In this document: positions 8,382 to 63,894 of the stretch, in pieces
How positions within the stretch are numbered: the stretch's first letter is position 1
Layout: every line of letters starts with the position of its first letter
Source of the DNA: Zychaea mexicana
Taxonomy: Eukaryota; Mucoromycota; Mucoromycetes; Mucorales; Lichtheimiaceae
NCBI RefSeq assembly: GCF_025766255.1
Contig: NW_026516810.1
Span: 34,071-98,070, forward strand
Reading direction: 5' to 3'
Length of the DNA: 64,000 nt
Position numbers and translations under genes: made by a program
Notes under the pieces: model-generated
What the model was told of the DNA's origin: nothing
Seen by the model: the letters and a program-made list of their open reading frames with translations, nothing else
The model's database searches: none

Positions 8382-9042
8382 GGCGGGCTGTACTAGGAAC
8401 GCAAGATTTAATGCAGCTGGTAGCAGACATTTTCGCTAAATTTGAAATCTGCATGCGAAAGACGTTGCAAACAGGTTTGTGGCGAAAAATGGGGGGTGGC
8501 CTTTTTCAAGCAAAAGCAAAACACATTTTGGCTAGGAAGATTGCACACTGAGGCCGATAAAACAGTTTGTTCACCAGATGCAGAACAAATACCAACGTAA
8601 GAAAGAGATGATCTCTGTCGCGCCATTATTGTATCTTAAATGTATGCTTTGCCTCACAGTAGTAATGCTTATACTTTGACGTTTGAATCGGGCCCGAGTC
8701 TAGGAACCCTCTATTTTCTCGTGCTTACGTTGAAGTGATCGTGTTGATCTAAGTCCATAAGCCTCTCGCTCTAATACCAAACTGGAGGACTACCTAGATT
8801 TTTGTATGATCAAAAAGCAACATATCTACAGTAACTATAATCGCTTGTCACCTCGGTCGACTGATAATTATTCGTTTTTTTGCTCACCTTGCTTCCAAAC
8901 ATGAAGCAATCCGCAAAGTCCATATCAGATGTAAGATTTTATCACGTGCGTTGTCAAGTAGCTCCCAACGTTATTTGTATAAACAAAGGTGCTGTTACTG
9001 GTACTCTTTCGAAGCAACGTGTGCGACACTGTTGCCGTTGAT
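8382..9042. other. Intergenic region upstream of the HET-domain gene
   Basis: About 660 bp with no supported gene. The upstream GTG-initiated extension of the HET ORF (from 8989) enters this region but contains no ATG before 9043. Confidence 0.4.
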
Positions 9043-10998
9043 ATGTCACATGGTACACAAAGCTTAAGCGTTTCGTCCCTTAAAATAAAAAAAAACGCCA
9101 AAATCTATGTTTTTCTCCCCTTCTCTCAACAAAAGCACAAGCTACAAAAAGATATGTATGTCACGTACGACAGCTCACAGTTCACGATCGAGTTTACAGA
9201 CCGTAGCCCTAGGGGTCCACATCGCCGGCCTCCAAAACGCGTACCGAGTTCCATACCGACACCGCCATTCAAACCAACCTACCTAGTCCGCATATCCGAC
9301 ATGAAGCGAGTGCTGGCAACAAATGTCAATGAGGGCTACTGTGCATTATCGTACTCGTGGAATTGGTCGGGTGACATAATTAAACACGAAAAAAATGACG
9401 ATGAAGAACCAGAATACAGTCGGGAGGATCACGGCCAACACACTATGATTTACCAAGAGGAAACAAAACTAAACGTCACAATAACATCATCCGAGAGATC
9501 AAGGCGAAAAAGACAAAAAAAGATGATGCGGATACGATTTACGACACAACAAAAGCTCGCCAAATTCGAACGCCTTATTCAACACATCTGCAAGGATTTC
9601 AACATTCGCTATATCTGGTTTGACCAGACGTGCATTGACCAATCAGATCACGACCAAAGAAAGCAAGAGATCCAGCGCATGCATAAGATTTACAAGAACG
9701 CCTATTGTACACTCGTCTTACTACCCGAATTTCAAGTACAGCCTTGCATACCATGGCACGGCGGATCCAAACATGTATCCAACATGAACACGATTCTCGA
9801 TTTTGAATGGTGTAAACGTGCATGGACGTTGGAAGAAGCATACATGGCATCCCGTCTCGTGTTTGTCGGCCGTAATGTACACATGTGGTCGCCCACAAAA
9901 GACGAACGTGCCATGCAACTTCCAACGCCTTCCGATAAGTTTCTTTATAATATCTGCACAACCCAAGCTATCCAATGGAATGCCAGTTCGGTGTTGTGGC
10001 ATGCACGGAGACGCACGAGCAGTAAGGCGCACGATCGCGTTTTTGCACTGGCTAATATGTTTCCAGACATTATCCACCGTGTCGATTTTAGCTATAAGCA
10101 GCCGCTTGACGAGGCAATGGTACAATTCTATGGGACGCTTGCTCAGCATGACTTGTCAATATTATGCTTTGGTAGTCCTCTTACTGTTTCAAAACAACGC
10201 CCCAAAGACAATCACATCACTGCCGGAATGATTGTACGGCAGAAAGAAGAAGATCGACTACCCACTTGGACGGGTATACGAGGAATGCATATTATCCAAA
10301 GCGTGTCCGATCATGGGTTTATGACCACAAAGTTTGAGGCAGCACGACGTACGACAGTGTCCGGACGACAACTATGTATCTCTTGCCAGTCCATCAGTAT
10401 TCGACTATCACCCCTCACCACAAATTCAAAACCAAGTAGTTACGAGTTCCAAGGACCGACATGGTGGAATAGGAACGGATTAGAGTTTGATCATGAGCTT
10501 CCAACAAGCGTTAGTCCTGCTGTTGTCGTTACCAGTGGTGCTAATGACTACAAAAGAGCAATGATGTTTATCTCGGACGGCGTGGATGACCAACTCAAGA
10601 TGTACGCTGAAGAATATGCCTTGGATGCTACTCACTGGTTGCCTATGACGACCAGCAAAGATGGACTTTGGACGAATGCATTGCCAGACGATGACAAGAA
10701 AAAAGCCGATGGCGGGACAAAAGCGACAAACCACTATTGTGCCGGATGCTTGTCGCTTATTATCAGCCATCATACCCCAATTGAACAACAGCAAGAGCAG
10801 CACATATTCACTGAATATGCGATCCTTTCCGAAATTGCTTTTAGCACGTTGAATGATGAAGTCAAGGCTATGCCTGTAGTTGGGCGACGCAAGGCGGATG
10901 GGATTTACGAAGCTATTGGTCTGTGCTTTTTGGATATCTTGGTTCTAGAGCATCTCGATCCAGGCGTTGAAACAACACGCGAGTTCATCATTGAATGA
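9043..10998 (+). CDS. Heterokaryon-incompatibility (HET) domain protein
   Basis: Single-exon gene of 651 aa from ATG 9043; a second in-frame ATG at 9154 could also serve. HET-domain landmarks appear in order: YCALSYSW (about residues 99-106, the usual Y-A-L-S-Y-x-W core), IRYIWFDQTCIDQSD followed by KQEIQRMHKIYKNAYCTLVL, and WCKRAWTLEEAYMASRLVFVG (the R-x-W-T-x-E element). A charged, Lys/Arg-rich insert separates the first and second blocks. HET domains in ascomycetes trigger cell death after fusion of unlike hyphae; their role in Mucoromycota is not established, so only the domain call is safe. The C-terminal 350 residues have no recognised domain. No signal peptide. Confidence 0.85.
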   Translation: MSHGTQSLSVSSLKIKKNAKIYVFLPFSQQKHKLQKDMYVTYDSSQFTIEFTDRSPRGPHRRPPKRVPSSIPTPPFKPTYLVRISDMKRVLATNVNEGYCALSYSWNWSGDIIKHEKNDDEEPEYSREDHGQHTMIYQEETKLNVTITSSERSRRKRQKKMMRIRFTTQQKLAKFERLIQHICKDFNIRYIWFDQTCIDQSDHDQRKQEIQRMHKIYKNAYCTLVLLPEFQVQPCIPWHGGSKHVSNMNTILDFEWCKRAWTLEEAYMASRLVFVGRNVHMWSPTKDERAMQLPTPSDKFLYNICTTQAIQWNASSVLWHARRRTSSKAHDRVFALANMFPDIIHRVDFSYKQPLDEAMVQFYGTLAQHDLSILCFGSPLTVSKQRPKDNHITAGMIVRQKEEDRLPTWTGIRGMHIIQSVSDHGFMTTKFEAARRTTVSGRQLCISCQSISIRLSPLTTNSKPSSYEFQGPTWWNRNGLEFDHELPTSVSPAVVVTSGANDYKRAMMFISDGVDDQLKMYAEEYALDATHWLPMTTSKDGLWTNALPDDDKKKADGGTKATNHYCAGCLSLIISHHTPIEQQQEQHIFTEYAILSEIAFSTLNDEVKAMPVVGRRKADGIYEAIGLCFLDILVLEHLDPGVETTREFIIE

Positions 10999-32645: not shown

Positions 32646-35600
32646 TGTAATTAAGGAAAAAGGAAATAGTTAAGAGCATCAAGTTTATGCGGCGGCATAG
32701 CCCTTATATACGATCGTAATGTGATACCGAAATGTCTGACACAGAAAATAATGACCGTTTGTCAGCAAAAGTTGGGACTCAAATCCCGCAAAGGCCGACG
32801 ATGCTGTCAAAGGACATACATCCTTCTCAGTCACTCGCTGACAGCTGCAGCACGGCTCTTCTGCTGAAAAGATTGCTGCATACATTTAAAAGGAAAGAAC
32901 GGGAAACAGCTCTGTGTTTTTGGCATCTGTAATTGTATTCTTTACATTGACGTGCTTATAATTCGGAGGGGAAACAAAAGGTCGGAAATGATAATTGCTC
33001 TCATTGGATCTGTTACGGGGTCGTTCTTTTCATACTATGCCGTAAGATCCCTATCAAAAGGTCAATTCGTTTCTAAGGTTGCTACCTCACTTATACACGA
33101 CTGATCAATGGCTGCTGATTACAGCAGTAAAGGTAGTATGTAGCTTAATGGAGGCAGCATCATTCATCCGCCCTGGTATGATAGCAAGCTTTGTGTGACA
33201 TGAAGGAAACATTAATGCTCAGCCATGTTACATAACAAAAAATTGACCGTGGGTGATGCATTTCTTACTAGCCTGCTTTGATGCTTCGATCACTTGCTCA
33301 TTATTTGTATACTAGAGACAACAGTATCAGCGTTTGATTCTGTGGAAACAAACAGCATATGCACGTCGTAAAGAAAAGGCTCTTGTTATACGACTGAATT
33401 ACTATGAATTGTCCTATAAACACTGCGCGATATAAAGGATTGCCACCCAGAAACCTTTCTACTCTCTGGATCAGTATGATGTCACGTGCTCCAAAGTATA
33501 CCGTTCCCATCAAGCTATGTGCCACTACTCCGAGAGAATATCGGAAGCAACAACGGCATTTACAGTAACAAGCTAAACGATGATATTCCGTATCAGATGA
33601 GGGGGGGGGGAAATCACTTGTACTAGTTTTACTATTCTGAAAAGACTTTCCTTGCGATTTTACGGAAGGATGCTAAATGGCTCATGAATTTAAAAGAAAA
33701 TACTTTCTATCTTATGGATGACCCGACTAGATTAGTATCTTAGACTGTAACTCCTTTTTACGAAGCATGATAGTACGCCATTCGTTTTAGACAGCATCGC
33801 GTAGCTACTATTTGGCTTGCAGTCTGTTTTATCCGCCTACTACCGCTACATACGGGGTTCTACTTTATACACACACAGAGTGGTATATCTCGACGAATTA
33901 ACGCAATAGTGTGGCGCACGTGTGAGTGCGCGACTATACGTATCCATTCATTGATAAACGATGGGAGCGAACCTAGATTAGCAACCATGTACGAATAAAA
34001 TAGCGTGCTGACGCACTGCACATGATGAGGGGTCCTTTTTACTCGATCTGGGGTTACGCATATCTTTCTTACTCAATGTTGTGTTATGTTTCAAACCGTA
34101 ATGGTCATCTAGCAGAAACTTATTTCTTACACCTGAACTAATTAGTCTCGATTTTCATGCCGAACGGAAGACAACAGTGACTGAGCAAAAAAGTACGGTT
34201 GTAGAGAGTTTAATTATCTTTCTCCCTCCATCTTTTTCTTTTTAGAGCTTCCCTGTCAACCACAACTACAGTATTCGCTATACTTCTGGTAGTCAGAACA
34301 AGCTACTGCCTGAGCAAAAGGGAGCCAATTAGTTGTTTCCTTTACATTTTCTATCATGCTGAAAAACATATTTACCCAACAAACAGCAGACCGCCGTATC
34401 GATCCTGTTTAAGAATGGTATTTTTTATTACATACCGTCTGACCACAACGGAAAAAGGAGAATCCTTCGAAACTATTACTTTCTAATGTAAGATGTGCTG
34501 GCTCATTGGTGCTGCTTACAAGCCATCTTTTTGCTCAATCGGATCCTTCACTAAAAATGTGGTGCCTTCTCTTTTATTTAAAGAAAAGCGAGCATACATC
34601 GTCAACGAGGCTTTTATCTTTTCTTCTCTTCCAAATTCCTTCCTCTCCTTTTTGGCGTTCTATACGGAGTATGAAATCGCATTCTGAAATCACTTGGGCC
34701 GTCTGTCTGTCTGTCACGCTTTTCGTTGTCATGGCAACTTGCTAATAATACACAGCTTCAACATCGCACTGTTCCTCTTTGTAATTGCAATAACATTTAC
34801 AATAAAGAATATAGAGTATAATTCTACTGATACAGCTTAAATATCGAATATTGGCTGTGGGTGACATTAATTTGGTGCTGGATAAGAAAGCAATCAAAAT
34901 ATTGAACCAGTCTCGAACGCTTTAAATCTTGGTTCCAGTGGTGAAACCCCCCCCCTGGGAAACATCCAAATGGTTGAATGACCCCGAGCTCAGCATAGGA
35001 GCTCTTCAAGCCGAGCGAAGCGAGGCAGGTGGACGTTGATAAAAAAGACAATGATACTGTGTCTTTACACACAACGGAGCATCAAGTATAGAAAACGTTG
35101 CGAAGCACGCCGCAGGCTCATTTTCCTTTTTCGCTACCACAGAAAATCACTGCGTATACAAACCAGTATAACTTCAGCAATGTGTCATTCTGATAGCATT
35201 ATGCAGATCAGGATCATCCTATTTCATCCACAATAAACATGAAATCAAATACGTGATCGATAACTTCTAAGCAGGCATCAATGGCTCTATGTAAACTCAA
35301 TAGCAGCAGTAAAGACAACAACTGACAGAATAAAATGCCGATATGTCCACCTTCTTCTACAGCATTTACTGCTGTCTTTACCTTCTGAAGTGTATAGCAG
35401 CTACTATTTCCATCATTCTATACTCCTTTTTAATTCGCGTTTTTCCTTGCAAGTACTGATATATTCACATCAAAAAAGAAAGCGAGCACTATTTGCATTT
35501 GTTGGGGCACATTTTGCTGCATAAAAAAAGTGGACCAATCAGAATCCAACTATATGGCGTGAACAGCTTCCCAACCGTGTCAAAATGCTCAAAACGCGTC

Positions 35601-35751
35601 GCCTTTTGCCAACATTTCAAATTCGCCTTTCTGACCTACCCTTTTCCTAAAACCTTCACTTTCATGGCACTCTTACTTATCATCACTGTACCCATCGCTA
35701 AATTGCACCACCCCGATCGTTCTCCGTTCTAGTTGAACATTAAAGTGCTAT
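32646..35751. other. Intergenic region at the gene/transposon boundary
   Basis: About 3.1 kb with no supported gene. Only short ORFs occur and no family motif was found in any frame. No terminal repeats seen. To the right the window becomes rich in transposon sequence. Confidence 0.45.
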
Positions 35752-37558
35752 ATGATGAAAACCGCAAGTTACACTAACAAGATAAACTTTTACACCGACG
35801 AAGAACTGCGGCTTGAGCCCATTACTTTGACAGAGACAAGATTGGACGCCGCGTACAAGCAATTGAATATCCACGTTCCGGGAGCTGAAAATCTCATCAA
35901 GATCACGAAACAACTTAAACACCAAGGTCTGCAAGCATCCGAAAAGTCAAGTCTCAACAAAATACTCAATGGCGGCAATGACCATGATATCAACGTGTAC
36001 CTGCGCACACAAAGCAACGAAGGGATCATATTAAAAGGACTGCTACTTTTAGTAGCTTTGGCGCATTTATTCAACCTTCGTGTGTATTATTTTTCGACCA
36101 GGAAGCATGCACGGATCATTAATCCTTCAGGCAAGAAGTTAGTGGCGGTACTACACCATGTCGACTCGTATTTATGCACTTCTACACAATGGTTCAGCTT
36201 AGAAGACACTCCTGACCACAAAGTGAGCTTAGGAAAAGAAGGGCTATATGTCATAATGTGGTATCTTTTTGGAAGAGTATGCCATCTAAACGGTGATTTC
36301 TATTTTACAGGTACCCAAAGAAAAACAAAACAAGCAAAAACCATCTGCACCATCAGCAAAGTCGGCCGCAACGTTAAAAATAAAGGGTGATGAAGAGGAG
36401 TCTTCATCTCTGGTGCGCACGGGTGTCAGCAAGGAAGAAATCATGACGACGTTCAAGACGGGAATTCAGAAATATGTTCGGCAACTCATCGACTCGGCCC
36501 TCACAAATGCAGTCAACGCGGAAGATGCCCTGACCGCTTTAAATCAATTACAACGTGATCATGCTAAGCGAAAATCATTACCACGCGTCTATGACACAAT
36601 GCAACAAGAAATTATCCGTAGCCATCCCGGTTTACAAATCTCCTCACCCTCCTGGTTTGGTGACCGTATAAAACAGTACAGGACTTTCGACCGATTTGGA
36701 TATTTCAAAGAAGAGGGGGACGCCCTCATTGAAGAGACCAGATCGTTCGTACAAATTTGCAACTGGGAGCAGGTTCTCGGTCATTGCGAGGATGTTTACA
36801 AAGATGATGTTGATGATGGAAACGACGGCAAAGAAGAAGATAAAGCGTCGAAATCGTACGAGACCATAACCTTTTCGCTAAGGAGTCTGCTGCGGACCGA
36901 GATTAAATACGATGATTTTCTGAAAGATATAAAAGACGAACAGCAACGCGTCGGTCGGTGCATTTCGGAGCTTAGCAAGGCAGGTGCCATATTGACCGAT
37001 ACTATTGTTACAGGGCGCGCTGCTCGACTTTGCGGAATCAATAATCAGCAGCAAAATCTCGATCTGCGCAAATTGGCACCAGACTTTCAATTTCCACCAG
37101 ATGCAGCCACCGTCATAACTATTGCTCCAATTCCTGAGGATCAAGAAAGGCTCGACACAGAAAGAGTCTATAAAAGGGAACATTTTTCAAATCTTCTATC
37201 GGGTAAGCTCATAGCTACGTGCTTTTTGTGTGCTGGTGAATATTTAGTTCTCACTTAAAGTTGACGATTAATGATTTTTTTAAAGGCTGTGTCGGCTCTA
37301 GTACAAGCTCTACTCGAGAATCATCCGTTTACTGCGAGATCCGAAAAGAAATCAATGACACTGGGCTCGTGTCAAAACAAGATGATTTCATGTTTAAAGG
37401 TGCAATGAATGACGCCTTAACAGAATTTTCGACGGCGTGTGATAACCTGTGGACCAGGAAGCGACACAATCGCGATCTTCGCGTTTTGGTGACTGCTTTA
37501 TTAAGGCTGAATCTTGCGCCGGAACGGGTACATAAATACGCTGAGACACGAAAGAAGG
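35752..37558 (+). CDS. Hypothetical helical protein; probable 5' exons of the Fanzor-type gene
   Basis: Exons 35752-36222, 36311-37202 and 37286-37558. Introns are GTGAGC...ACAG (CTAAAC branch point) and GTAAGC...AAAG, both in phase. The first ~155 residues contain GLLLLVALAHLFNLRVYYFS, and then a LHHVDSY segment, weakly reminiscent of an OTU-fold hydrolase but without a clear catalytic triad. The rest is Lys/Glu-rich and predicted helical (GVSKEEIMTTFKTGIQKYVR, AEDALTALNQLQRDHAKRKS). The third exon runs open into a repeat array. A donor G|GTACTG at 37558/37559 would connect in phase 1 to an exon at 38653 of the nuclease gene, giving one 1413-aa protein. That nuclease exon has no good ATG of its own, which supports the link. 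A separate gene is the alternative. Confidence 0.5.
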
Positions 37559-37560
37559 GT

Positions 37561-37758
37561 ACTGTAAATTTTTACGTACTTCACCTTCCTTTTTTGGATT
37601 TTTACGTACTTAGCCTCCAAGTTTTTATGTACTTAGCCACTCAAGTACATAAATCGGGTACTGTAAATTTTTACGTACTTCACCTTCCTTTTTTGGATTT
37701 TTACGTACTTAGCCTCCAAGTTTTTATGTACTTAGCCACTCAAGTACGTAAATCGGTT
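37561..37758 (+). repeat. 99 bp tandem duplication (2 copies) with TACGTA motifs
   Basis: Copy 1 (37561-37659) and copy 2 (37660-37758) differ at only a few bases, so the duplication is recent. The unit is 33 codons, and the frame of the preceding exon stays open through both copies to a stop at 37858-37860. Each copy contains AATTTTTACGTACTT and two more T-rich TACGTA/TATGTA boxes. Read as protein it would be a hydrophobic repeat (FYVLHLPFLDFYVL), more likely a translation artefact of non-coding repeat. Confidence 0.8.
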
Positions 37759-38640
37759 CTGACGCTGTATATTTGTACTATAAAATTTTACGTACTTCCT
37801 ATTTGGGAATTTTACGTACTTGTCTTTTTTGTGCCTCGTTTGAGTAGATCATACAAATAGCTACCATTGATGTAGCCTATCATACTTTGACTCTGTATAA
37901 CCGTCGCAGCTACGATGGCTACTGTAAATTTTTTACGTACTTCACCTTACTTTTTATGCAAAAAGTTACGTACTTGGCCACCGAAGTACATAAATGTTAT
38001 AAACATTCTTCGACCTCTAGTAAGTGATCATCCTCAACCTCGTTGATGACATATTAAATCCCCATCTATCATCATCATCCGAATTATCGACCTTAATACC
38101 AATCTTTCCGTTTATTCACATCATTGAATTCTATAGTAAAGACATATATATATATATATCATAGTCTTTGAACGATAAAACATCAGTCAGTTGTCTTGTT
38201 TCCTCCCTATACCTTGTTCTTGTTTCTTCCCTCACTATCTGGTTTCCTACCTTCTGGCTTCCTTCTTGTCTTGTCCTGTTCTTGCCGAAAGCACCTAGCA
38301 CATTCTCGTCCGGTGTTTCTGGCCTTGTGTTGTCTTGTCCCTGTTCGCACCTTACAGTAAATCAGTTCTCGCGCTGTATATTCAACCTATAAAATTTTAC
38401 GTACTTCTCATTTTGGAGTTACATACTTCCGATTTTACGTACCTGCTGTATATGATTTTAAGTACCTTGAGCGCTTAAAGGACCATACATGTTGTTATTA
38501 CTTTGAAGATTTTGTATATATAATCACGTTTCACGGAAGGGCAAGAAAGCCCACACTATGTTTTAAAGGTACGTAAAGGTTGATGTACGTAAAAATTGGT
38601 GTTAGTATGATTGTATGACTAGTGAGTGTAAGTAGTCAAG
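37759..38640 (+). repeat. Diverged TACGTA-box repeat array around a dispersed repeat
   Basis: Further ATTTTACGTACTT boxes occur at about 37788, 37812, 37930 and 38394, with inverted ones at about 38573 and 38585. Two ~60 bp related segments (starting GCTGTATAT, near 37764 and 38371) flank the interval holding a dispersed repeat (38011-38206). If the long gene model is right, all of this lies in a 1.1 kb intron, about ten times the usual intron length in this window. Confidence 0.6.
38011..38206 (+). repeat. Dispersed repeat, copy A (related to 46712-46930)
   Basis: Shares an ordered set of words with the segment at 46712-46930: CGACCTCT, GTGATCATCCT, TTAATACCAAT versus TCAATACCAAT, TTCACATCAT, a (TA)n run, GATAAAACATCAG, CTTGTTTC. 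The two copies are clearly homologous but diverged. Both contain an AT-rich TATA-like block. It may be a fragment of an LTR or other dispersed element. No target duplication identified. Confidence 0.65.
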
Positions 38641-38652
38641 GAACGCGCTCAG

Positions 38653-41413
38653 AAAAAAGAGACCGGTTTTCCTGCCAGAGCGACTGCTTTACCTGCAATC
38701 GCCGAAAATGGAAGTACGTAAAAATTCGCGCACCCAAGAAATTCGTCGAGACACTAAATCATCACATGAATCAACTGGCTTGGGCTATATGCCGCGATAG
38801 GCCTGAAGAAGCCACCAATAAGCTGTTCCACAAAGTGCAGGAGTGGCAAGGAAAGGTAATGATACGTCGTCTTCTGTTTACCATTGATTATCATTGTGTG
38901 GATAGATCTACTTTTACTAACTTTATTTAAAAACTATATGAAGCTCGGTAAGCCCCAGTCGAAACCTGCTGTGTCTGACAAGGCCCCCTCCGATGCCAAT
39001 ACCTCCACCGATGCCAATACCACGCCCGCAACCAATAGTGCCAAACCGAAGAGACAAGCACGTTTAGTTCAAAGAGAGCTAGCTATGTATGATCCGCTCA
39101 ATGTTACAGACGACGATAACGAAGAGGAAGAAGAACAAGAAGGAGACGAGGAACAAGAGGGAAGCCCAGGCGTAACCGAGCATGAACCTTCCAATCGACG
39201 TATACGTGCACTGACGTCCATTATCAAAAAGATCCTTGATACAACCAAAAAACAAGCATCGACAAAGATCATTAAAGAGACGGCATTCAAGGGAACTGTT
39301 CTCACTGATAAGCAATGCAGCGCTGCCGCAAAGATTGCAAACGCTTTGCGCCCATACTACTGCCCTGAAGATCAAGATGATGAACAAGGTCCAGCTCCTG
39401 TGACAGTGCACCAGGCTGCTCCTTTGGCATACATTACGAACGCTATCGTTGATATAATTGTTCCTCAACAGCATGTACTTGCCGTGGCACCCGAAGTCCA
39501 CCCAAATGACCACGCTATCCATCTATCAGCCAGTGCTTTGTATACGCTTGTCTCGGAAAAGTACGAGATGCCATGCCGCGCAACTGGAAAGACTGTCACC
39601 AGCAAGCGTCAAGCTGGAATTGGTGAAGCTCGCCGCGATGTGATTGGAGCGTTTTTCTCTCTTTCAAAAATATACAAAGCACTGCAGACAAGGGATCTGG
39701 TCTTCGCTTATCGTCTGACGTTCGTGAACCGTCATACAGTCCGCGTACTAGGTGTATCTGGACATGAAGGAAGTGACAGTGACCATGCCCACGATACCGA
39801 GAAAGCGCCCCAAGGAGGTCCCAGTAATGAAATGGACATGGATCTGGTAGAAGGGAGCGAGAATGAGCGTAAACCTGGCAGTGTGCTCAGTGATATCTTC
39901 GTCGATGACAAGGCTACTGGCAAAGGCAAGCAACCTATGGCACCTACAGAGACAAAGGGAAAAGGCAAACAGGCGATGGCACGTACGAACCCAAAGGGAA
40001 AAGGCAAAGCAGGGACAGGAAAGTCACGCAAGGCCCACAACAAAAGCAGACGGAAAAAGCGCAAAGCCAAGTCGTTGCCATCGGACCGTCCCTCGAAAAA
40101 AAGAAACAAGAACAAGGACAGTTCGCCAACGAAGAAGGACACGGACGTAGATGATGAGAAAGAAGGTATCAAAGCACAACGTATCAAGGAGTTTGAAACA
40201 TGCGCAAAGCGGCTTGCTGCTGAAGTGGCAAAACTGCAGAAGCAAGGAAATGCCGTTGAGAACGAACGTGCTGATTTGGCAAACGCTTTTCGTCGCGAGT
40301 GGAAGATGACCAAATTGCGGAACCGTGAAAAGTATGGTGAGCTGCAGATGGTACGCAAGCAAGCAAATTCTGTTATTGCTCAGGTCGCTCAGAAACAAAG
40401 GCAATTGGCCGACACCCGATCGCAGCTGTATTTGATGCAACAGAAACCCAAGGCAGAACCAGCTGCACTCGATAAGGAACAGGTATGTATAACCAAACTC
40501 AAAGACGTGGTACACTTGATGCAATACTTACATTGTTTGTATATCACAGCAACTACTACAAGAAAAAATTGTTGAGAGCCTTGCTACAAACAAGAACGTT
40601 GGTGTTATCGGCGTGGACCCAGGGCTTGTAGTATCAGCAACTTCTATCACCACTACTGCCAAAGATCTGTACCAAACAATTGTTCCGTACACCCGTCCCC
40701 AGCCATCATCATCGCCATCTTCCTCTTCAGCACCTGAAACAGCACCAGTACAGCCATCAGATCCGCCGTCTGTGGCGCACCCGCTACCTCCAGCACAGAC
40801 TTATACAGCTAAAAAGAAAAGAGCAGCTACGCTGGAAGCAGCTCACCAAACCAGACGGGAACAGCACAAGAAGAAGCATGGCGACAATACTAGTGATCAA
40901 GACAGACGACAAAAAGAAGCTCGCACTAGGGACATCCGACACGACGTCTTTCATCGGAAACTTGCGTCATCGTGGAGGGTACGTGGATCCGCATCCACAT
41001 TGACGTTCTTTGGCGCATATAAATCAACAAACTCGAGGATAAAAGGTCACTGTCGTGGTGCGAACGCCACCTTACAACAACATTTAGGTTCCCCCGACCG
41101 TGACCATGTAACTGTTACCAATGAGCACCGATCCAGCAAGACTTGCCCATTTTGCCACTCTCCGACAAAACTGCACCAATACCGGCGCGAAGGCAAATTG
41201 GTCAAGGTCAACGGTGCAGTGCGGTGCACCAATCCAGCATGCCCGAACAAGAGTCGCAACACTCACAACAGGGACCAAGTCGGATCCGTCAATATCGCAT
41301 CGATTGGATTTTCCAAAGCCATATCTGCCACCAACACCCCTATCCCGCCTTTCTCTAGAATGCCATTCCTTTCTTATAACATTTCTCCCTACATGGAGCA
41401 ACTGCTGACGTGA
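38653..41413 (+). CDS. Fanzor-type RuvC nuclease (eukaryotic TnpB homologue), RuvC-containing exons
   Basis: Exons 38653-38855, 38944-40482 and 40550-41413. The first intron has a perfect TACTAAC branch point; both join in phase 0. The last exon carries the TnpB/Fanzor core. RuvC-I is VGVIGVDPGLV with Asp at 40616-40618. A conserved N-S-R-I-K-G-H segment follows, then the Glu of TNEHRSSKTC (41123-41125). Zinc ligands are Cys at 41144 and 41153 (CPFC) and at 41225 and 41240 (CTNPAC). RuvC-III is NRDQVGSVNI with Asp at 41273-41275. The long middle exon holds an acidic region, KGKGKQ repeats, a strongly basic NLS-like stretch (about 40020-40120) and a coiled coil just before RuvC. A Pro/Ser-rich insert lies between RuvC-I and the rest. 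No stop or frameshift is seen. Fanzors are RNA-guided DNA endonucleases found in fungal and other eukaryotic transposons. The true 5' end is uncertain and may reach 35752. Confidence 0.87.
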
Positions 41414-42489
41414 CACCTGACCAGGTTCTTCATGTCTACCACGCGATGTCGGATAGAAAATAGTACCTTCGTGGAACGTCTGTATTTTTATTTATTAAAA
41501 ACTCCTTTCAACATCTTTTTATATATCTCACCAGCTTGGGATTTGTTCAACAATGGAGACTGGACTTATTGTTTTTCTGGTGTTTTTTTGCCTCGTAGCA
41601 TTACCATTCGCTATTGTACTTTTATATGTCGGATACAGTGCTGTTTACCCTATAATGCGAAAGTGTGCTTGATACGACAACAAAGAGCTTTAGACGTTTC
41701 TTGAATGTATATGCATATATGTATATGTATAGGACGCATCGTGGTGCATGTACTCAGGATTCCTCATTGTATGATATACACTTTTTCACGCCACAAGAGT
41801 TTAAAACCCATCCCGAAAACAACTACGCAGATTACTACGATTATCGTTATACAACCACAACTGATGACCCATTTCTCTGGTTTTGCCATGGCTCAGTATG
41901 CATGTACCAAATGCAGCAGTTATCGAAACGCATTGTGGTGATAACTCGAGAACTATCCCTCCCATAAAATCTGAATACAAGAAAGAGCTGCATAACAAAC
42001 ATCAAGCACATCACATCACACAACAACAAGAGCTCTACCACAGCAACCTCGCAATTACTACAACATTCTGGCACTTTCTATAAAGCCAAGGACACAGCGA
42101 TCCAATAACAACGCAGCAACGACAAGTAATATGATTTTCGATCTTGGCTTCTTTCCGTGTTCTTTATCTATTTTATTTGCACTAGTGAATATTTTGGTCA
42201 GAACATAATAGTACGACGCCCACACTACGTACATCACCGACACCATACACAACTATAGATGAATATGAAGACAATGCTAGCTCGACAGGGTAAGTACAAT
42301 ATTTTTTTATTGTAGTAGGCGGCTGTACTTCGGGTCGATATTTACCTTGGTACGGATGATTCAGGCGATCCAGATCTGTGTCAAGTGGTGCTTCAGGGTA
42401 AGATATCTTTGTCCCTGTTGCTTACATTTTTCCTGTCCTAGTATGGATCAACAGTATACTCACATTTAAACACTGCGAGTGAAATATAG
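41414..42489. other. Region downstream of the Fanzor-type ORF; possible guide-RNA zone
   Basis: About 1.1 kb with overlapping short open frames but no supported protein. In characterised Fanzor loci the guide (omega-like) RNA lies at or just after the 3' end of the ORF, so the first few hundred bases are a candidate. No clear stem or element terminus could be fixed by eye. A GTAAGT donor at 42290 may belong to an upstream exon of the next gene. Confidence 0.3.
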
Positions 42490-43275: not shown

Positions 43276-44211
43276 GGAGGTCTCTATGAGCTATACGTGA
43301 CGCTGTTGATGTGGGTTGATATGGGTTGTTTTGGGTTACTACTGGTGAACTACTAGCAATGAAAACTGGTGGATATTGGTAATTTTTTGTGAAAGTTGTT
43401 TCTGGTGAATTTAGGTGAAATTGCCATTTTCACCTTAACAATAATTAACCAGGTTTTACAAAGATTAACCGTGGTGAATAGCATTATTCCTAGACTTTCC
43501 AATTGATTCCACATCCATAACCATTGGATGCGAGTACTTTCCACAACCTTCGAGCATCATCTTTGATGTTCAATTAATATAGATGTATTGAAAGATATAA
43601 ATACCCCCTCATTTTATTTGAATAAAAACATTGAATTTCTACCTCCCACTTTTGACTTAACCTTTCAAGTGTTGTTTTCAATCACTCAAGACCTAAACAC
43701 GGCTTGTTTTATATTACATATTGTTTATTGCTCATAACTGAAGCTAAATAAACCCTTCTATTAAGACCAGACGTAACATTCCTGCTCTTATTTCTCATTT
43801 ACTTGGACAGACGTAGCATTCCTGATCCTTATTTCTCATTCATTTTGGACAGACGTAACATTCCTGATCCTTATTTGTACTCACTGAGCTTAATCAAGAC
43901 ATCAGCTCACTACTATTTACGACCTTGGACATAAACCATACACATTTTTACCTTACTTTACACTCATATCACTTGACAACCCGTCTGTAATAAACGATAT
44001 TATTACTGGTGCTCACTACAAAACATACACATAAACCGTTACGCAACTACCTTGAATACCCCAAATTCACCGTAACAGTGGTACATAATTTGTGCAGCTT
44101 GTCCGACCTGTGTTTTTGTGGCTGCATTAAAAGACAATCAAAAGAGGGTGATGGTGATCGTGACTTATATATACTCCCGCTATCACTGCTACCGCGGCCA
44201 ACGGCATCCAT
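43203..44211. other. Non-coding region with LTR-like features
   Basis: AT-rich, with a TATAAATA block near 43597 and an AATAAA near 43621, then three imperfect copies of a ~40 bp repeat. The arrangement recalls a solo LTR, but matching TG...CA ends with a target duplication were not found. Confidence 0.3.
43768..43885 (+). repeat. Tandem repeat, 3 imperfect copies of about 40 bp
   Basis: CAGACGTARCATTCCTG recurs at 43768, 43808 and 43850, each followed by a TTATTT(C/G)T stretch. Period about 40-42 bp. Non-coding. Confidence 0.7.
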
Positions 44212-55717: not shown

Positions 55718-58700
55718 TTAAGCTGTAACTGTTGTTAATGCTTCTCTGTGCACAATGTTTAAGGTCGAATGTGATGGTTGCGATGTTGGTGGGTCGGAAG
55801 GAAGTAGAAAAACTGTGAGAGAGTTGGGAGTGCGGACGCGGGATAATGCCACATATAGTTGGCCATGTGCGAAAGCTGGCTTAAACAGGCACAGCATTGC
55901 TCTATTGAGGGTTTGACCTTGCGACTTATTGATAGTCATTGCGAAGGCAGGGACCACAGGGAACTGATGGCGGCAGAGTTTAAATGGGAGATCATTTTCT
56001 TTCGAGTATAGACTGATGCGTGGAATATAGACGATATCACCTAGTCAACAAATAGAATGTGTTGATAAGCTAGGTATAAAATCGATCCAGAAGTAGGTAA
56101 TTGTATATACCTGCAAAGTCGCCTTGAGCAATTTCTGCTTCAATAACGTGTAGTAAGAGATTTCGACATATTAACCGCGTTCCATTGCATAGGCCCTTTT
56201 GAGGATTGATGTTGCGTAGAAGCATTATTGGCTGGTGTCGTTTTAAAGAAAGTTGATGAGGAGGATAGCTATTGAGAGTGATGGTGTGAAGGTATTCTGG
56301 TGGATGAGTGGCTTCAAATGCCTCGGAGTCGACAATCTTATCAGAAGATAGATATTCGTGCGTTTCTCCAGGAAAAATTAATAATGCTACATCGTTAAGA
56401 GAGCGAATATCGTCGTTGTATGGTGCTAATATGGCACGGCTGGTCATGTAATCGCGGTCAGTGTAATTTGTATCCAAATCAGGGTAGGCGGAGCGAGCTA
56501 CAGAGGCGAGACTGGAAGTGACAACGCATGATTCGGAGGGCAGGCTTATTGTCACTGCATCGGATTCAGGAATTGCGGTACCTGGCTCGCGTCCTTCACC
56601 AACACGTAAAAGATATTCAGCAAATTGCTGCAGTAGAGTGGCCGTCGTTGGATCAGGACTTTGCTGGACGCACATGTTTTCGGTGAGTCGAAGCACACGG
56701 ACAATGTTGTTGACAAAGAGGTAGGATTTGATCAAGGAAGCATCGATAATATCAGCCTTGTTGCCATTGGGAACTATAGGCAGTGTTTGTCTAAAGTCAC
56801 CGCCAATGACAACAGTTTTTCCTCCAAAAGGAATGCGTTCCAAGCGACGATCAGTAACACCCATGATCTCTCTTAAAAGTCGATCAACTGTCTCGAAACC
56901 GAATCTGTGGCACATTGGTGCTTCATCCCAGATGATGAGCTTGGCCTGTCTAAGTATCTGTGCTTGTGGACTGCGGATCCGAACCGTGCTGATGGTATTG
57001 GCAGCCAAATCCAAAGGAAGCCCAAAACGACTATGTGCTGTACGACCACCTTGCAGCAACGTTGCAGCAATACCGGAAGAGGCGACAGGAATGGCAATTT
57101 CGCCATCCGATCTAACTTTTGCCAGTAAAGCGCTGTAAACGAACGTCTTTCCGGTGCCACCTTGTCCATCCAGAAAAAAAACTCGACCTTGCTCTGGCGT
57201 TACTGCTTCTGGATCTTCACCTTCTTCAATGGATTGCACAACAGCGTTGTAAGCATCTCTCTGAGCATCATTGAAACTATCTTGAGAGCGCTGTACTATG
57301 CCTCGCAGTTGAACGCGATTATACCGTGTTTCTTGCTGTAAGAGGCGGTCGTAGGTGTATTGGTGATTTCCCTCTTGTAAGGCAGGCAATTGCGGCATGT
57401 CAGTAAATTCGATCAAGGAGCGGCCGTACTGGGGAAGCAATGCTGCTAATTCCTCCAAGGCTCGTAATCTTGCTGCAGTAATATCCTCCTCTAAAAGCTC
57501 CACATGCTGCTGGCCATTTTCAGCCTGTAATTGGCGACGTCGATTCTCGAGGAAATCAGCAGCAATATCGTCAGTATATCTTTCCCAAAGCTCGCCAGGC
57601 GTCAGGATATCGCAGAATGCCAGGATGACGGCAAAGAGATCACGGAGCCGTGACGCGGATGTGGTGACCTCAACAGCTTCTCCAAAACACCTATTCCACT
57701 CATCGTCGTCTTGTAACAATCCGCGTGCCTGTGCAGCAGCCTTAAACGTGGGATATACTGTGCCTTCAAAAGTGCGGATATCCTCAAAACTGGTGGCGCC
57801 CAGAACGTACAACAACAATAGCCTCAAGCTATATTTCTCTAGGTCACGTGGCTGTACAAAGTACAATCGAGAGACTGGTGCCACACCACGGTTATGCATT
57901 CGTCCACGGCGATACCATCCACGCTGTCTGCTGTGCGTATATGCCGAGTAGATGTCGACATATAAGTATTGTCGTGCGTCAGGGTCGCGCTGGTTCAACG
58001 CAAACCAATCTACCAACGTCGAGCTCCGGTTGCGTGCTGCGCGTTGCAAGTCTCGAACATCGGCATCAGCTTCAAAGTACACGTTCTCTTCTGATGGCAA
58101 ATGGATATCTAAGCGCTTTACTGCTGGAAAATGACTCTGCATATCCTTCTCGAAAATGCGCCAACAACTTTCTGCTGCCGATACGTATCGTACATTCAAA
58201 AATGCATCAATCTCATCAACGTTTTCTTCATTTGCTTGCGTCACTGTCGCTGCACTTTGGGTGCCTACTGTCACCTCGGCACGGTCGGACCCTTTGTAAA
58301 CGTACTTGTATAGGTACTTTACAGCTCGGTTGCTGGAGCAAATTTCGACGTTGATATGGGCGTTGTACTTTGTTGTAAGATATAAGTTGTACGGAACGAC
58401 CCATCCATTTCCGACATTGTATGTTGTGCGGTTGACAATTCTTTCGATTGTGCGATCAGGCATATCACGTCGACGATATGTTATATTGCCGTTTTCATCG
58501 AATCGAGTTTCATTGGCGAATGGTTTGGGAAATCGTTTTGAGCATGATCCATTACTCATACAGATGGCGCGTGGATTGAGTAAAGAGCCACAGGGAGTAT
58601 GGATCATATTGCGTGTGACAGTGGCATATGCCTGTGGATAGTGCTGGGGGTCTGGAAATTCAGCAGAAACGATGTTGTTGACATCCTCAACAGTGCGTAT

Positions 58701-60746
58701 TTTGGAGTCATCGTGCATAATCAAAACAATGTGGACATGTGGCAAGCCGCGCTTTTGGAATTCAATTACTTGAACCCATGCGACAACATTGCCGAGCACG
58801 TTATGATCTTTGAGATCTGCCATTATTAGCTTGATCTTTTCAGAAAAAACACGGGCAATCAAGTCAGGGCGATCAGATGGCTGCTGTCCATTAGAGGCCA
58901 AGGCTTCTCTTATTTCCGGCCACTCTGGGTTGCACGTAACAGTTATAAAAAGATCCGGCTTTCCAAAATGTCGCACAATAGCCATTGCATCCTGATACAG
59001 CTGATGCATATAACTTTATAAAGAACAGAACAGAAAAAGATAACAGAGATTGATGTAAGCAATTTCATGTATAGTAACATTTTATTTTATTTTCACCATA
59101 ACAAACTCTCCACAGCAAAACGCTAGCTGATTGTAATTCTAAACGATCCCAGGCACGATACTCATGTTGCTATCTTAAAGAATAACTTACCGAGGACTGC
59201 CAGTATGAGAAGATGGAAGGATAACACAACGACCCAAATTTCGAGCCAGCTCGTTATTATCTTCTCCTACATCTTGCTGGAGCGCATCAGCCATACCACT
59301 GTAAAGTTCCACGCGTAGCTGTCTTTGATGGCTGCGATAGTAATGCATACGACGGTGCTCAATCTTTGCGTACATATCGACAATGTACTGGTGCCAAAGT
59401 CGCCCATATAGATGCGCAAGAGACTCGCCACGTTCTTGGATGCGGTAGGCGTAAAATTGACGAACCGAGACAGTACCCTGACGACCATGACGCTCCCGAC
59501 CTGGCTCAGCTTGAGCATGCTGATGTCCACGAAGAGGAATTCCTTCACTCCATCCATTTTCTGCATTTGGGAACATAAGGACATAATGCAGTGGATCATA
59601 CAAACTACTTGTCTCATTAATCCTTTGCATCCCTCCATCACGGCGAAAGAGAACAACATCACGATAGGTAGCATCTTCGCCTGGATTGTCAACAATCAGT
59701 ACAGCTATTTCGTCAGTAGTAGGAGCTGCATACTGTCTTCTGCGGTGCTGGATCCCAAAGATGCGTATCCCCAAGTTGACACCTGGTGCACCGCGCAAAC
59801 GCTCAGCTGCCGTCCGAAAGGTCTGAACATGCTGATTATTTTCATCAAGTATAGCCTGCAAATCAAGCAACAATGCACGATCCAGGTTTCCATCTAATAC
59901 ATTGCCGAAAAAGTTATATAAGACCGTTCGTTATAAATTGTGTTTACTAATGCTAACCTGGAAAGACTGTCTGTCTGATTGCTGCCTGCTCTTGAGGATC
60001 ATATATGTAGATTTGAGCAAAGCGGGGCGGACGACCATCTTGAGGAACAATGGAACTGATTCTGTGGTAAACAGTGCCTTAGATACGAAAAGAGTATGCT
60101 CCGCCTCTAGCATTGGTATAATTTTGGTCGAGACGATCCACACCAAGGGAAGCAAATGCAAAAGTACCATTGTATAGGCGGATCTGTTCACAAAACGTTG
60201 ACGATTCCTCATCTGTACCAATGAGCAGAGAGCGCAGTGGCACTGGTGGACGCAGAACAGGTGGAAGTTCAACAATTCCATAGCCACAGCAAATTGAATA
60301 GCAATACGTGCCATCAACATTCTGTCGACGGGTTTCCCAAGACCAAACCCGAGCACCGCATGCACTGCATGTTGCGTTCATTGGTGGCAACACATGACGG
60401 TGAGCGTGAGGAGATGCAGCGTCCTCAACAATATCCTACCCAGCAATAGTTGTTTCCTCGAATTGGTCCTGATATCCAAGTGGCCTAGTAGCAGTCCTTT
60501 CTAGACGGGGTCTGCCTGCACCACGACGACGTGTTCTGGGCCTGCCAAAGCCTTCACGCAAATCAATAGTAGCAAATAAATTGCCAGAGGCATCTTCTTG
60601 ATGCTAAAGTATCATTATATAATGCTCAGTATCATGAATCAGCTTCACGGCGTTTACGATATCCAGTGGTCTCAATAACTCACAGTGTTGGTAGGAGCAG
60701 TGATAGTTTGTCCTTGCGGTGTGGTTTCAGCAGCGTTGTTACTCAT
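55718..60746 (-). pseudogene. Helitron Rep-helicase gene with two in-frame stop codons
   Basis: Exons 60746-60684, 60603-59958, 59893-59191, 59013-56111 and 56040-55718; phases agree (4638 nt, 1545 codons before the stop). Two stops lie in exon 2, both in frame: TAG at 60438-60436 and TAA at 60081-60079. The latter sits inside FRI-stop-GTVYHRISS, where a CAA to TAA change is the simple explanation. Domains in order: a Cys-x2-Cys piece (ATCSACGARVW), the Helitron-like N region, PRYMHQLYQDAMAIVRHFGK, HUH motif QKRGLPHVHIVLI, two-Tyr motif KYLYKYVYKG, Walker A GQGGTGKTF, Walker B LIIWDEAP, and C-terminal TINKSQGQTL and QLYVALSRVRTPN. This is the rolling-circle transposase of a Helitron, here probably dead; starting at Met 60381 would bypass only the first stop. 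Confidence 0.9.
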
Positions 60747-61763: not shown

Positions 61764-63894
61764 CTATGATATAAAGAGGTGGGGCGATGGCTCGTTGTTG
61801 AGTTTTCGTCGTTTGTTGGGATTTGTGTCGTCTTCTGGAAAATGCTTGTTCAGCAGATTACGAAAACTCTTGCCTCGTGCCAGTTGCGTCGTTGGTAAGT
61901 CGTTGAGTTGGTAAATGTCACGTAAGTTTTTATAGCGGTTTTGTGCATTAGCGCATTTATTGCGTAAATGCGGACTATTCTGGATTACTTGATACAGTGT
62001 TTCGGCCGTCTTGATTCTATGTGCGGGTAGTCGAATTCTGGCCTCTTCCCATTCTGCCAATTGTCGAATCATCTGTACCAGATCGGCTGGCAAGATGTCA
62101 TCCAGGGGGCTCCCAAAAACGCCAGCACCTGCTGGATGTCGAAGGTGGTCGCAGCAGAAAAGTTTTCCATACAATCGTCAGTGTGTTTACTGCGAGAGGC
62201 ATGGTATTGGCCATGTCGCTGGCTTGTTGCGCTGTGTTATGCTCCATGAGGGTCAGAGACTGGTTAACTAGTGGAGAGGCAGTGAGTGTAGGTCTAAAGT
62301 GGACATGTGGCAACTTAGATATACACAATCTGTTGCCGTGAAATACTCCACGCAGCATGTCTCCTTGTAAGGTTTTGAGCTGATAACCATTTTTGTTGTT
62401 AACGTGATGGACAATATAAGGTCCCAGCCATTTGAGTTCGAGTTTTCCACTCCAAGATGTTTCTATTGCATTGTTATATACAAGGACAACGTTGCCGACA
62501 CTAAATGGTGGTTGCAATAGGTGGTTGCGTTTAGCTAGCACCTTCTTGTCAATGGTTTTCTTCTGATTTTCCTGAGATATCTTAATCGTGGCCGCGGCTT
62601 GTTGTCTAATTTGACGTAACTTGTGAAGTTGTATCCTCATGCGTTGTGCAATCTGTTTAGGTGTCCAGTCAAGATCGGCATCGGTGTGCGTGGATTCGTC
62701 TATTAGTCTATCAAAAGGTGTATTGGGATCTATTCCATACAACATGGCAAATGGACGTTCTTGTGTGGAAGCCTGACGGATCGTGTTGTATGAGAATGAA
62801 GCTGCGGGTAAATATGTGCACCAGTCATCACGTTCTTTCAGTAGAAGTTTTCGTAGGATTAAACCAATTGTTTTGTTCAGACGTTCGACCTCTCCATTGA
62901 CCGATGCGACAAAAGGACTAATCTTTTTGACTGTATATCCCCAAATCTTTTGTACTTCTTCCATGAGTCCGTTTGCCAGAGGTTTTCCGTTATCATGGAT
63001 CAATGACGAAGGGGTTCCAAATTTGCAAATGATATCCTCGTATAAAAAGGTTGCAACTTCCGTGGCGTTGGCATGACGTACGGCCTTAGCTACTGCCCAT
63101 TTAGTAAAGTAGTCGATACACACAATAATGTACTGAGACCCGCGTCGCGTAGTCTTTAGGTGTTTAATGTCTAGGCCCCAACTTCGAAATGGTTCGGGTT
63201 CTATCGGGATAGGGATAAGCAACTCGTTGCGTGTTTGCTTCTTTTGTCGCTGACAATGATCACATCGAGAAATCGCGTCCTTGATATCTTTTTTCATCGT
63301 CTCCCAGAAATATTTGCGCGAAATTTTATAATATGTGTTTTCTGTGGCGAAATGGCCTCCGAAAGGGTGAAAGTGGAATTGCCAAATACAGTTATCAGCC
63401 TCCGATTTGGTGAGGACTAATTGTGGTGAATCACCGTTGTGTCGGTACAGTCGATCGTTATATGTGAAGTAGTGTTTGCTTTGACTGTTAAGGAAACGCT
63501 GTTGCTGTCTCGTGATGCCCGGAGGATACTCGAGAGTATCTAGATAGTACTGTAGCAGTGATAATTTGACAGGGTCTATTGTTTTGAAGTGTTTGCTTTG
63601 TAAATGTTCTTACTAGCCGTTCTGTTGAGGTATGCTTGTGACAATCTGAATATCTGATGTGTGGTAATTAAAGTGGTAGAATAATCTTTTGGTGAAACAG
63701 TTGGAAATAGAGTGTTTTTGAATGTATTATATATTGTTTTTGTTTTTTCGAAACGTGTTATTTGATCTTGATTTTTTTTTTGAATACTAGGTTTAGGCGT
63801 GTCTTTAGTGTAGCCGTGCTTGTGTAGCAAACGTGCACAGTAGTAAGGTGTGATCGGGGGATTGTTGAATGGACGGGAAGTTGAATACCCGATA
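61764..63894 (-). pseudogene. Ty3/gypsy-type integrase gene, frameshifted (possibly stand-alone integrase)
   Basis: An exon probably starts after the acceptor ATACATAG near 63894 (upstream exon not found). It reads PPITPY and then HKHGYTKDTP, KTIYNTFKNTLFPTVS and IFRLSQAYLNRTASKN before a stop near 63576. From about 63600 the frame one base over is open: KLSLLQYYLDTLEYPPG, then an H-H-C-C zinc domain (HFHPFGGHF ... CDHCQRQK). The DDE core follows: LDIKHLKTTRRGSQYIIVCI, the Asp of IHDNGKPLANG, and VNGEVERLNKTIG. Next come the GKLELKWLGPYIVHHV tail and a C-terminal extension switching frame near 62170 to VQMIRQLAEWEEARIRLPAH, ending at 61764. The overlap near 63590 (TTCAAAACAATAG) is a one-base frameshift, mutational or programmed. 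No reverse transcriptase is visible in the window. Confidence 0.75.

Follow-up and report, generated by a model that had tools for sequence, protein, structure and literature searches.

A Fanzor1-type nuclease gene with an interrupted third exon, on a probable Helitron2-like element of Zychaea mexicana

Does a nuclease gene whose catalytic end is open and well preserved still encode a working enzyme, and by what means has such a gene spread through the genome of its host? These questions are raised by a stretch of 64,000 nucleotides of Zychaea mexicana, which belongs to a genus of the fungal order Mucorales (contig NW_026516810.1, positions 34,071 to 98,070; hereafter 'the window', with coordinates counted from its first letter). 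In this window a first-pass annotation had placed a Fanzor-type RNA-guided nuclease locus at 38653 to 41413. In our judgement the window quite likely holds a Fanzor1-type gene that spread recently and is now broken, carried, as in Chlamydomonas, by a non-autonomous, Helitron2-like rolling-circle element. Two of its features are unusual: the long N-terminal part matches no known family, and the non-coding tail at the 3' end is conserved. We found no published account of this element in the open literature, subscription papers and Repbase being outside the scope of that search.

The identity of the nuclease is read from the last exon, in which GVDPG, NSRIKGH, EHRSSKTC, two Cys pairs and NRD follow one another in the order originally described. 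Translation places the three acidic codons where they had been expected:

40616 to 40618, forward strand: GAC, the RuvC-I Asp codon (in GVDPG)
41123 to 41125, forward strand: GAG, the alternative RuvC-II Glu codon (in EHRSSKTCPFC)
41273 to 41275, forward strand: GAC, the RuvC-III Asp codon (in NRD)

DPG at RuvC-I, a trait of Fanzor1 and Fanzor2, and a Glu six residues ahead of the zinc finger together form the molecular fingerprint of Fanzors, according to the available text of PMC10711439, and the exon has both: the DPG at codon 40616 and, at RuvC-II, the alternative Glu six residues ahead of CxxC. This Glu stands in six of the seven exon 5 sequences, all from the Zychaea genome, from which we built a profile (A1). 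Searched against PDB, the profile matched SpuFz1, the Fanzor1 of Spizellomyces punctatus (PDB 8gkh; E 1.4e-8), and PpFz1, that of Parasitella parasitica (PDB 9cf0; E 1.4e-4), and nothing else at E ≤10. Thus only Fanzor1 sequences and no unrelated family were recovered, and the annotation of a Fanzor-type nuclease is borne out both by the published fingerprint and by these matches. A single-sequence PDB search with exon 5 reached the Spizellomyces Fanzor at E 0.012. The motif of Bao and Jurka, D-X(125,275)-[TS][TS]XX-C4 zinc finger-X(5,50)-RD, is also present when its zinc finger is written as the regular expression CxxC-x(5,40)-Cx(2,4)C, and no recombinase domain (IS607-type, excluded for Fanzor1) was found in the exons scanned. 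SpuFz1 shares the general form of this region, with a DEYKTSSVC block, a Cx4C second Cys pair (CTNPNC, against CTNPAC in Zychaea) and NRD. In the alignment the matched Glu and Asp of SpuFz1 lie 65 residues apart by manual count, against 50 in the window; this is the spacing of E541 and D606, which the available text of PMC11423790 names as catalytic along with D383, and that of PMC10432273 describes as binding Mg ions. Given the long open frames over exons 4 and 5 (570 and 297 codons), the identity between copies and the Fanzor-only matches in PDB, the similarity of exon 5 is not due to chance.

Some observations, however, weigh against the assignment. On exon 5, PF07282 (Cas12f1-like TNB) scores 21.8 bits, under its cut-off of 26.3. 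The exact pattern published in the available text of PMC10711439, DPG-x(120,160)-E-x6-CxxC-x(12,18)-CxxC-x(4,8)-D, which was built to find Fanzor-like TnpBs, does not match the window, where DPG and the Glu are 166 residues apart, Cx4C forms the second pair and a spacing of 10 residues precedes the Asp; since SpuFz1 too has Cx4C, we do not take this failure as excluding a Fanzor. Furthermore, the TDG motif of the WED domain, a Fanzor1 trait in the available text of that paper, does not occur in P0001, the NCBI model of a close copy. The segment at this site reads TFVNRHTVRVLG in P0001 and in all three of the diverged group B loci that reach it (C264, C157 and C278, contigs placed below), and KFVNRHTICVLG in C281. 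We therefore class the gene as Fanzor1-type and not as a canonical Fanzor1. The relatedness of Fanzor and TnpB invites another question, namely whether a TnpB-like gene was brought in by bacterial contamination. With four GT-AG introns, copies on many contigs, an NCBI host gene model, and an alternative Glu and Cx4C pair like those of SpuFz1, the chance of this is negligible.

How much of the gene precedes the nuclease exon? Comparison with the close copies on contigs C224 and C252 gives a full gene of five exons and about 1,400 codons, starting at 35752 and not, as first annotated, at 38653. Its four introns measure 67-88 nt and all have GT-AG ends, and the last two splice junctions match P0001. 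The parts are as follows:

35752 to 36222, forward strand: exon 1 (157 codons, a domain of no known family)
36311 to 37202, forward strand: exon 2
37286 to 37557, forward strand: exon 3, first part
37558 to 38735, no strand given: insert in exon 3, a high-copy repeat (unit about 37653-38735) with a partial tandem copy
38736 to 38855, forward strand: exon 3, second part
38944 to 40482, forward strand: exon 4 (513 codons, with a long low-complexity stretch; splice sites as in P0001)
40550 to 41413, forward strand: exon 5 (RuvC-I, RuvC-II with the alternative Glu, C4 zinc finger, RuvC-III)

By position only, exon 4 is the counterpart of the WED/REC part of Fanzors. The same five exons follow in the same order in a diverged copy, on contig C264; the matching pieces are 31-61% identical, exon 1 being the best (given also as 58-63%), and the gene there is broken by stops and extra sequence.

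A search of the genome with exon 5 returned 36 matches, some of which are pieces of one copy. Group A consists of the window copy (contig C54) together with C224, C252 and C293, with exon 5 matches 85-96% identical to the window. Group B (C264, C157, C239 and C278) stands at 47-51% and group C (C284 and C257) at 41-51%, and the remaining matches at 27-51%. At the protein level exon 5 shares 96% of its amino acids with the copy on C224, and 48-52% with three diverged copies. In a set of 5.8 billion proteins a single match was listed, BDB00DRAFT_829483 of Zychaea mexicana (P0001, 840 amino acids); this is the C252 copy, three pieces of it (45, 513 and 222 amino acids) being letter-identical in that contig. 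Among the matches listed from this set there were no relatives outside the Zychaea genome, a result drawn from 7999, 5676 and 8000 scored candidates that does not imply the absence of homologues elsewhere. The phage sequences searched gave no match, and IMG/VR gave one pattern match but no relative.

Several other loci of the same genome resemble parts of this gene. In the C284 copy (L013:1486-1962), Asp replaces Glu at the alternative RuvC-II position (NDYRSSKTC). Five near-alike copies (L023, L024, L025, L026 and L028, on C68, C13, C243, C201 and C190) are about 35% identical to exon 5, with a matched frame free of stops and with DEYRTSQTC or NEYRTSQTC followed by FSRD (FSHD in L028); they may represent a younger Fanzor-like family. 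Four further loci (L001-L004, on C57, C246, C79 and C295) match PF07282 above its cut-off. They have a short CxxC...CxxC finger and HRDINSSK in the three that were translated, and are closer to Fanzor2/TnpB than the window gene is.

We can now ask whether the window copy is intact. In blastn comparisons with C224 and C252, the window is matched from 34676/34756 to 37557 (at 95% and 97%) and again from 38736 to 41489 (at 98%), with a stretch in between that only the window has. At this place the window carries 1178 bases, as against about 65 bases in C224 and C252, and these 65 are missing from the window. The inserted repeat has at least 42 matches in the genome, the window included (40 of 113 candidates were scored), and 17 of the others span most of the unit of about 1.08 kb at 90-99%. 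What the first-pass annotation took for the first exon, 38653-38735, is the end of this repeat and not Fanzor sequence. Its report of no stop or frameshift is accurate for exons 4 and 5 but not for the gene, since the repeat interrupts exon 3. Nor are the other group A copies whole: the frame of C224 is shifted in exon 4, that of C252 meets a stop in exon 2 and shifts in exon 5, and C293, a contig that holds only the gene end, has stops and frame changes in exons 4 and 5. Given the insert, and at least one lesion in each group A copy, the proposal that the window gene is intact and possibly active is not supported. The window copy is probably a relic and not a working enzyme, and an intact RuvC exon seen in isolation does not imply an intact nuclease gene. 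The repeat unit itself, 37653-38735, has TACGTAAAAATT-type ends, and its middle (454-820 of the query) matches a second group in the genome at 82-85%.

The accompanying suggestion of recent activity fares better at the level of the family. Its close copies are 95-98% identical, synonymous distances per exon between the window and C252 are low (0.015-0.085), and one copy retains a perfect 7-bp target duplication, so that recent activity of the family is supported. That all four group A copies are broken, each in a different way, fits a recent spread followed by decay.

It might still be argued that the window encodes a working Fanzor in a shorter form, made up of what is left of exon 3 together with exons 4 and 5 (about 830 codons), the N-terminal part being dispensable or a separate gene. 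We keep this reading because exons 4 and 5 are free of stops, with intact splice sites; P0001 likewise begins in exon 3, although the exon 2 stop of C252 may have forced that, and typical Fanzor1 proteins have 600-700 amino acids according to the available text of PMC11423790. Yet exon 3 runs open and undivided through the insert site in C224 and C252, C264 retains exons 1-5 in order, Ka/Ks (the ratio of non-synonymous to synonymous change) is lower in exons 1-2 than in 4-5, though not significantly so, and the insert of 1.2 kb now separates the promoter region from the remaining exons. On balance we find a working short form improbable, and continue with the reading of a broken gene.

What kind of element, then, carried this gene? 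The comparisons with C224 and C252, together with a comparison of ends, delimit it as follows:

About 34653 to 41489, forward strand: whole element, from a T-run and 5' inverted repeat to the 3' T-run
34654 to 34665, forward strand: 5' asymmetric terminal inverted repeat, GGCGTTCTATAC, immediately after TTTTT
34654 to 35132, forward strand: 5' segment akin to stand-alone short Helitron-like repeats (34649-34738 and 34743-35132 match L043-L050 at 71-91%)
41414 to 41489, forward strand: 3' non-coding tail, a candidate omegaRNA scaffold, conserved between subfamilies
41474 to 41489, forward strand: 3' end, GAACGTCTGTATTTTT, a remnant of the 3' inverted repeat and then a T-run

Helitron2 elements, as defined by Bao and Jurka in the available text of PMC3627910, have asymmetric terminal inverted repeats, terminal hairpins, and insertion after TTTT without duplication; the 3' repeat lies 20-30 bases from the end and is followed by the hairpin. 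The 5' terminus TTTTNGGCGTTCTATACGGA, which opens both the window element and the C224 element, has 22 matches in the genome at ≤2 mismatches, against 1 for the reversed control. In C54 and C224 this terminus follows a T-run with no visible target duplication, whereas C252 begins about 22 bases inside the 5' end, with TTTT followed by TGATACT at either side, a perfect duplication of 7 bp. The three copies thus all follow the rule of insertion after TTTT, with a duplication only in the 5'-truncated one. At the other end, homology stops at one common point in C54, C224, C252 and C293. All eight of the copies compared, which were picked for the motif, end in GAACGCCTGTA or a near variant and then 4-6 T; C278 is without this end. 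With ≤1 mismatch, the 3' pattern GAACGYCTGTATTTTT was matched 11 times, known copies accounting for 5, and its reversed control twice.

The short Helitron-like elements follow the same logic at both ends: all eight that were found by their 3' end carry the 5' end 0.2-1.6 kb upstream in the right orientation, and this 3' end consists of GAACGCC, the hairpin GTCGCCGCAGGCGAC and a T-run. The short element L048 does have the 3' asymmetric repeat and the hairpin. On C190 and C287 a Helitron_like_N match lies 2.3 kb and 2.5 kb behind the same 5' end on the same strand, and the C190 element additionally codes, in several frames, for DUF6570 and a PIF1 helicase. Two such RepHel matches behind 22 ends correspond to P ~0.009, a value that is a hint only, since its two assumptions, that the spread is uniform and that the two copies are independent, do not hold. 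Since parts of the window's first 480 bases match both ends of the short elements, the simplest history would be that a short element captured the gene when its 3' end was read through.

Against these regularities must be set a number of misfits. Six of the 11 GAACGYCTGTATTTTT matches lie outside known copies. Of the 12 bases of the inverted repeat only 7 are left at the 3' end, 9 bases from the end (6 of 7 in the window), and no terminal hairpin of the Helitron2 kind follows this remnant in the Fanzor element. A palindrome is visible at the 5' end, but its energy is not below that of shuffles, with z 0.80 for the window and -0.68 for L048. The 3' end of the C190 RepHel element was looked for and not found, and in a fragment on C234 the match ends within intron 1, not at the 3' end. 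The Fanzor element behaves as a Helitron2 passenger. It obeys the Helitron2 rules for the 5' end and the target but departs from them at the 3' end, where the hairpin is lacking; we therefore term it Helitron2-like and claim no settled membership in Helitron2.

In a different account, the element is no Helitron but some other transposon without clear inverted repeats, or one of MuDR type, and the Helitron-like 5' end is a separate, adjacent insertion. The lack of a 3' hairpin agrees with this, and the C252 duplication can alternatively be read as 11 bases, TTTTTGATACT. MCi-2, an unclassified Fanzor1 element of Mucor circinelloides, also in the Mucorales, offers a precedent in the available text of PMC3627910, with a Fanzor part of about 6 kb, no recognisable terminal inverted repeats and variable 5' ends; its 11-12-bp duplications and ATAATT pattern, compared by description only, are unlike ours. 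But C54 and C224 share the 5' terminus after a T-run, C252 begins about 22 bases inside it, and the 5' segment from 34772 onward is common to C54, C224, C252 and C129, and is therefore part of the element and not a separate insertion. We accordingly give the non-Helitron account a minority share of the probability, although not a trivial one, and retain the Helitron2-like element. IS200/605-type and tyrosine-recombinase-type ends were considered and dropped once the Helitron2 rules fitted, and a transposon with long terminal inverted repeats was rejected, the inverted repeat shared by both ends being only about 7 bases.

Other observations concern the same ends and the same superfamily. In C224 about 2.1 kb of other sequence lies just inside the 5' end, before the shared part (L077, L035; C224:168764-170930), with a 339-codon antisense frame that by eye resembles the reverse transcriptase of a long interspersed nuclear element. 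A diverged copy at C129:9369-14448, reverse strand, has a degenerate 5' terminus about 3.7 kb ahead of the shared 5' segment. The genome contains 129 Helitron_like_N matches. One Helitron RepHel frame (981 codons; Helitron_like_N, PIF1) lies in the window itself, at 56073-59015 on the reverse strand, some 15 kb away from the Fanzor element and opposite to it.

If the element is Helitron2-like, it would be mobilised in trans by RepHel protein from a Helitron whose 5' terminus it shares, and would insert after TTTT, leaving no target duplication when the 5' end is complete and a short one when it is truncated. The Fanzor protein, in turn, may take its guide from an omegaRNA transcribed across the 3' tail and on into the adjoining DNA. 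In that case the right flank of each copy would serve as the guide of that copy, with the T-run as the target motif. By cutting the empty site or the sister chromatid, Fanzor could then favour the copying back of the element. The case therefore yields testable predictions for the guide and the target motif.

What do the copies say about such a tail? Conservation of the 71 nt after the stop is seen when group A is compared with B (z 9.0), A with C (4.2 and 4.3), and B with C (7.6), with 0 of 500 shuffles reaching the observed value in each case, whereas in the comparison of the window with C264 neither intron 4 (z from -0.1 to 0.8) nor the outer flank (-0.4) is conserved. For comparison, three published Fanzor1 omegaRNAs have 75, 90 and 150 nt according to the available text of PMC11423790. 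A point on the other side is that the window tail folds no better than shuffles at three lengths (z 0.51, -1.24 and -0.40), so RNA structure is not demonstrated; Rfam gave no match over the window.

Among the closest known systems are CRe-1, CRe-2 and CRe-3 of Chlamydomonas, as described in the available text of PMC3627910. They are non-autonomous, encode multi-exon Fanzor1 proteins, have a 5' end in common with Helitrons, and insert after TTTT, where it is mainly the 5'-truncated copies that show duplications (about 7-19 bp). They differ in belonging to a green alga, and their last 50 bp are about 70% identical to a Helitron, where the Zychaea element has an inverted-repeat remnant and a T-run. 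SpuFz1 is one open frame of 633 amino acids in an element (SPu-1) of 2.1 kb with 33-bp terminal inverted repeats, again by the available text of PMC3627910, whereas the Zychaea gene has five exons and about 1,400 codons, in an element of about 6.8 kb that has no long terminal inverted repeats. PpFz1, from the same fungal order, has a RuvC insertion of about 100 amino acids that binds cyclophilin (FRI; available text of PMC11423790). A Pro/Ser-rich stretch also follows RuvC-I in the window, its equivalence to the FRI not being established. According to the available text of PMC5148889, most of the Helitrons identified in Pezizomycotina group with Helitron2, and ATTTT forms the end of two Fusarium subgroups. 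Zychaea provides a well-delimited fungal case of a Fanzor on a Helitron2-like element, for which both ends, a rule for the target and a number of close copies are available.

There remains the long N-terminal part, for which the available text of PMC11423790 describes no counterpart in PpFz1. Exons 1-3 belong to no known family by Pfam and, for exon 1, by PDB, and beyond the RuvC/zinc-finger end nothing credible was found by Pfam on exons 1-5 or by NCBIfam on exons 4-5. An OTU-like fold suspected by eye in exon 1 was backed by no search. In comparisons of the window with C252 and C224, Ka/Ks lies at 0.13-0.19 for exons 1-2 and at 0.39-0.58 for exons 4-5, a gap that is consistent in direction but not significant (Fisher p 0.26 and 0.11). 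Exon 3 is mixed, with values of 0.12 and 0.46 against C252, and no synonymous and six non-synonymous changes against C224. We put forward, as a rather doubtful conjecture, that exons 1-3 (about 545 codons) form a partner domain fused to the nuclease, under selection at least as strong as the nuclease's, which would couple the guided cutter to Helitron-type copying and define a Mucorales-specific subtype of double length. The long conserved N-terminal part suggests that Fanzors may far exceed the size of those characterised so far.

The remainder of the window holds features of other kinds:

8983 to 10995, forward strand: HET-domain protein
43589 to 44077: repeat, of which an inverted match (83-91%) lies about 1.0 kb behind the Fanzor copy on C224
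51182 to 51934, reverse strand: transposase piece (Plant_tran)
62101 to 63609, reverse strand: integrase of long-terminal-repeat type (Integrase_H2C2, rve)

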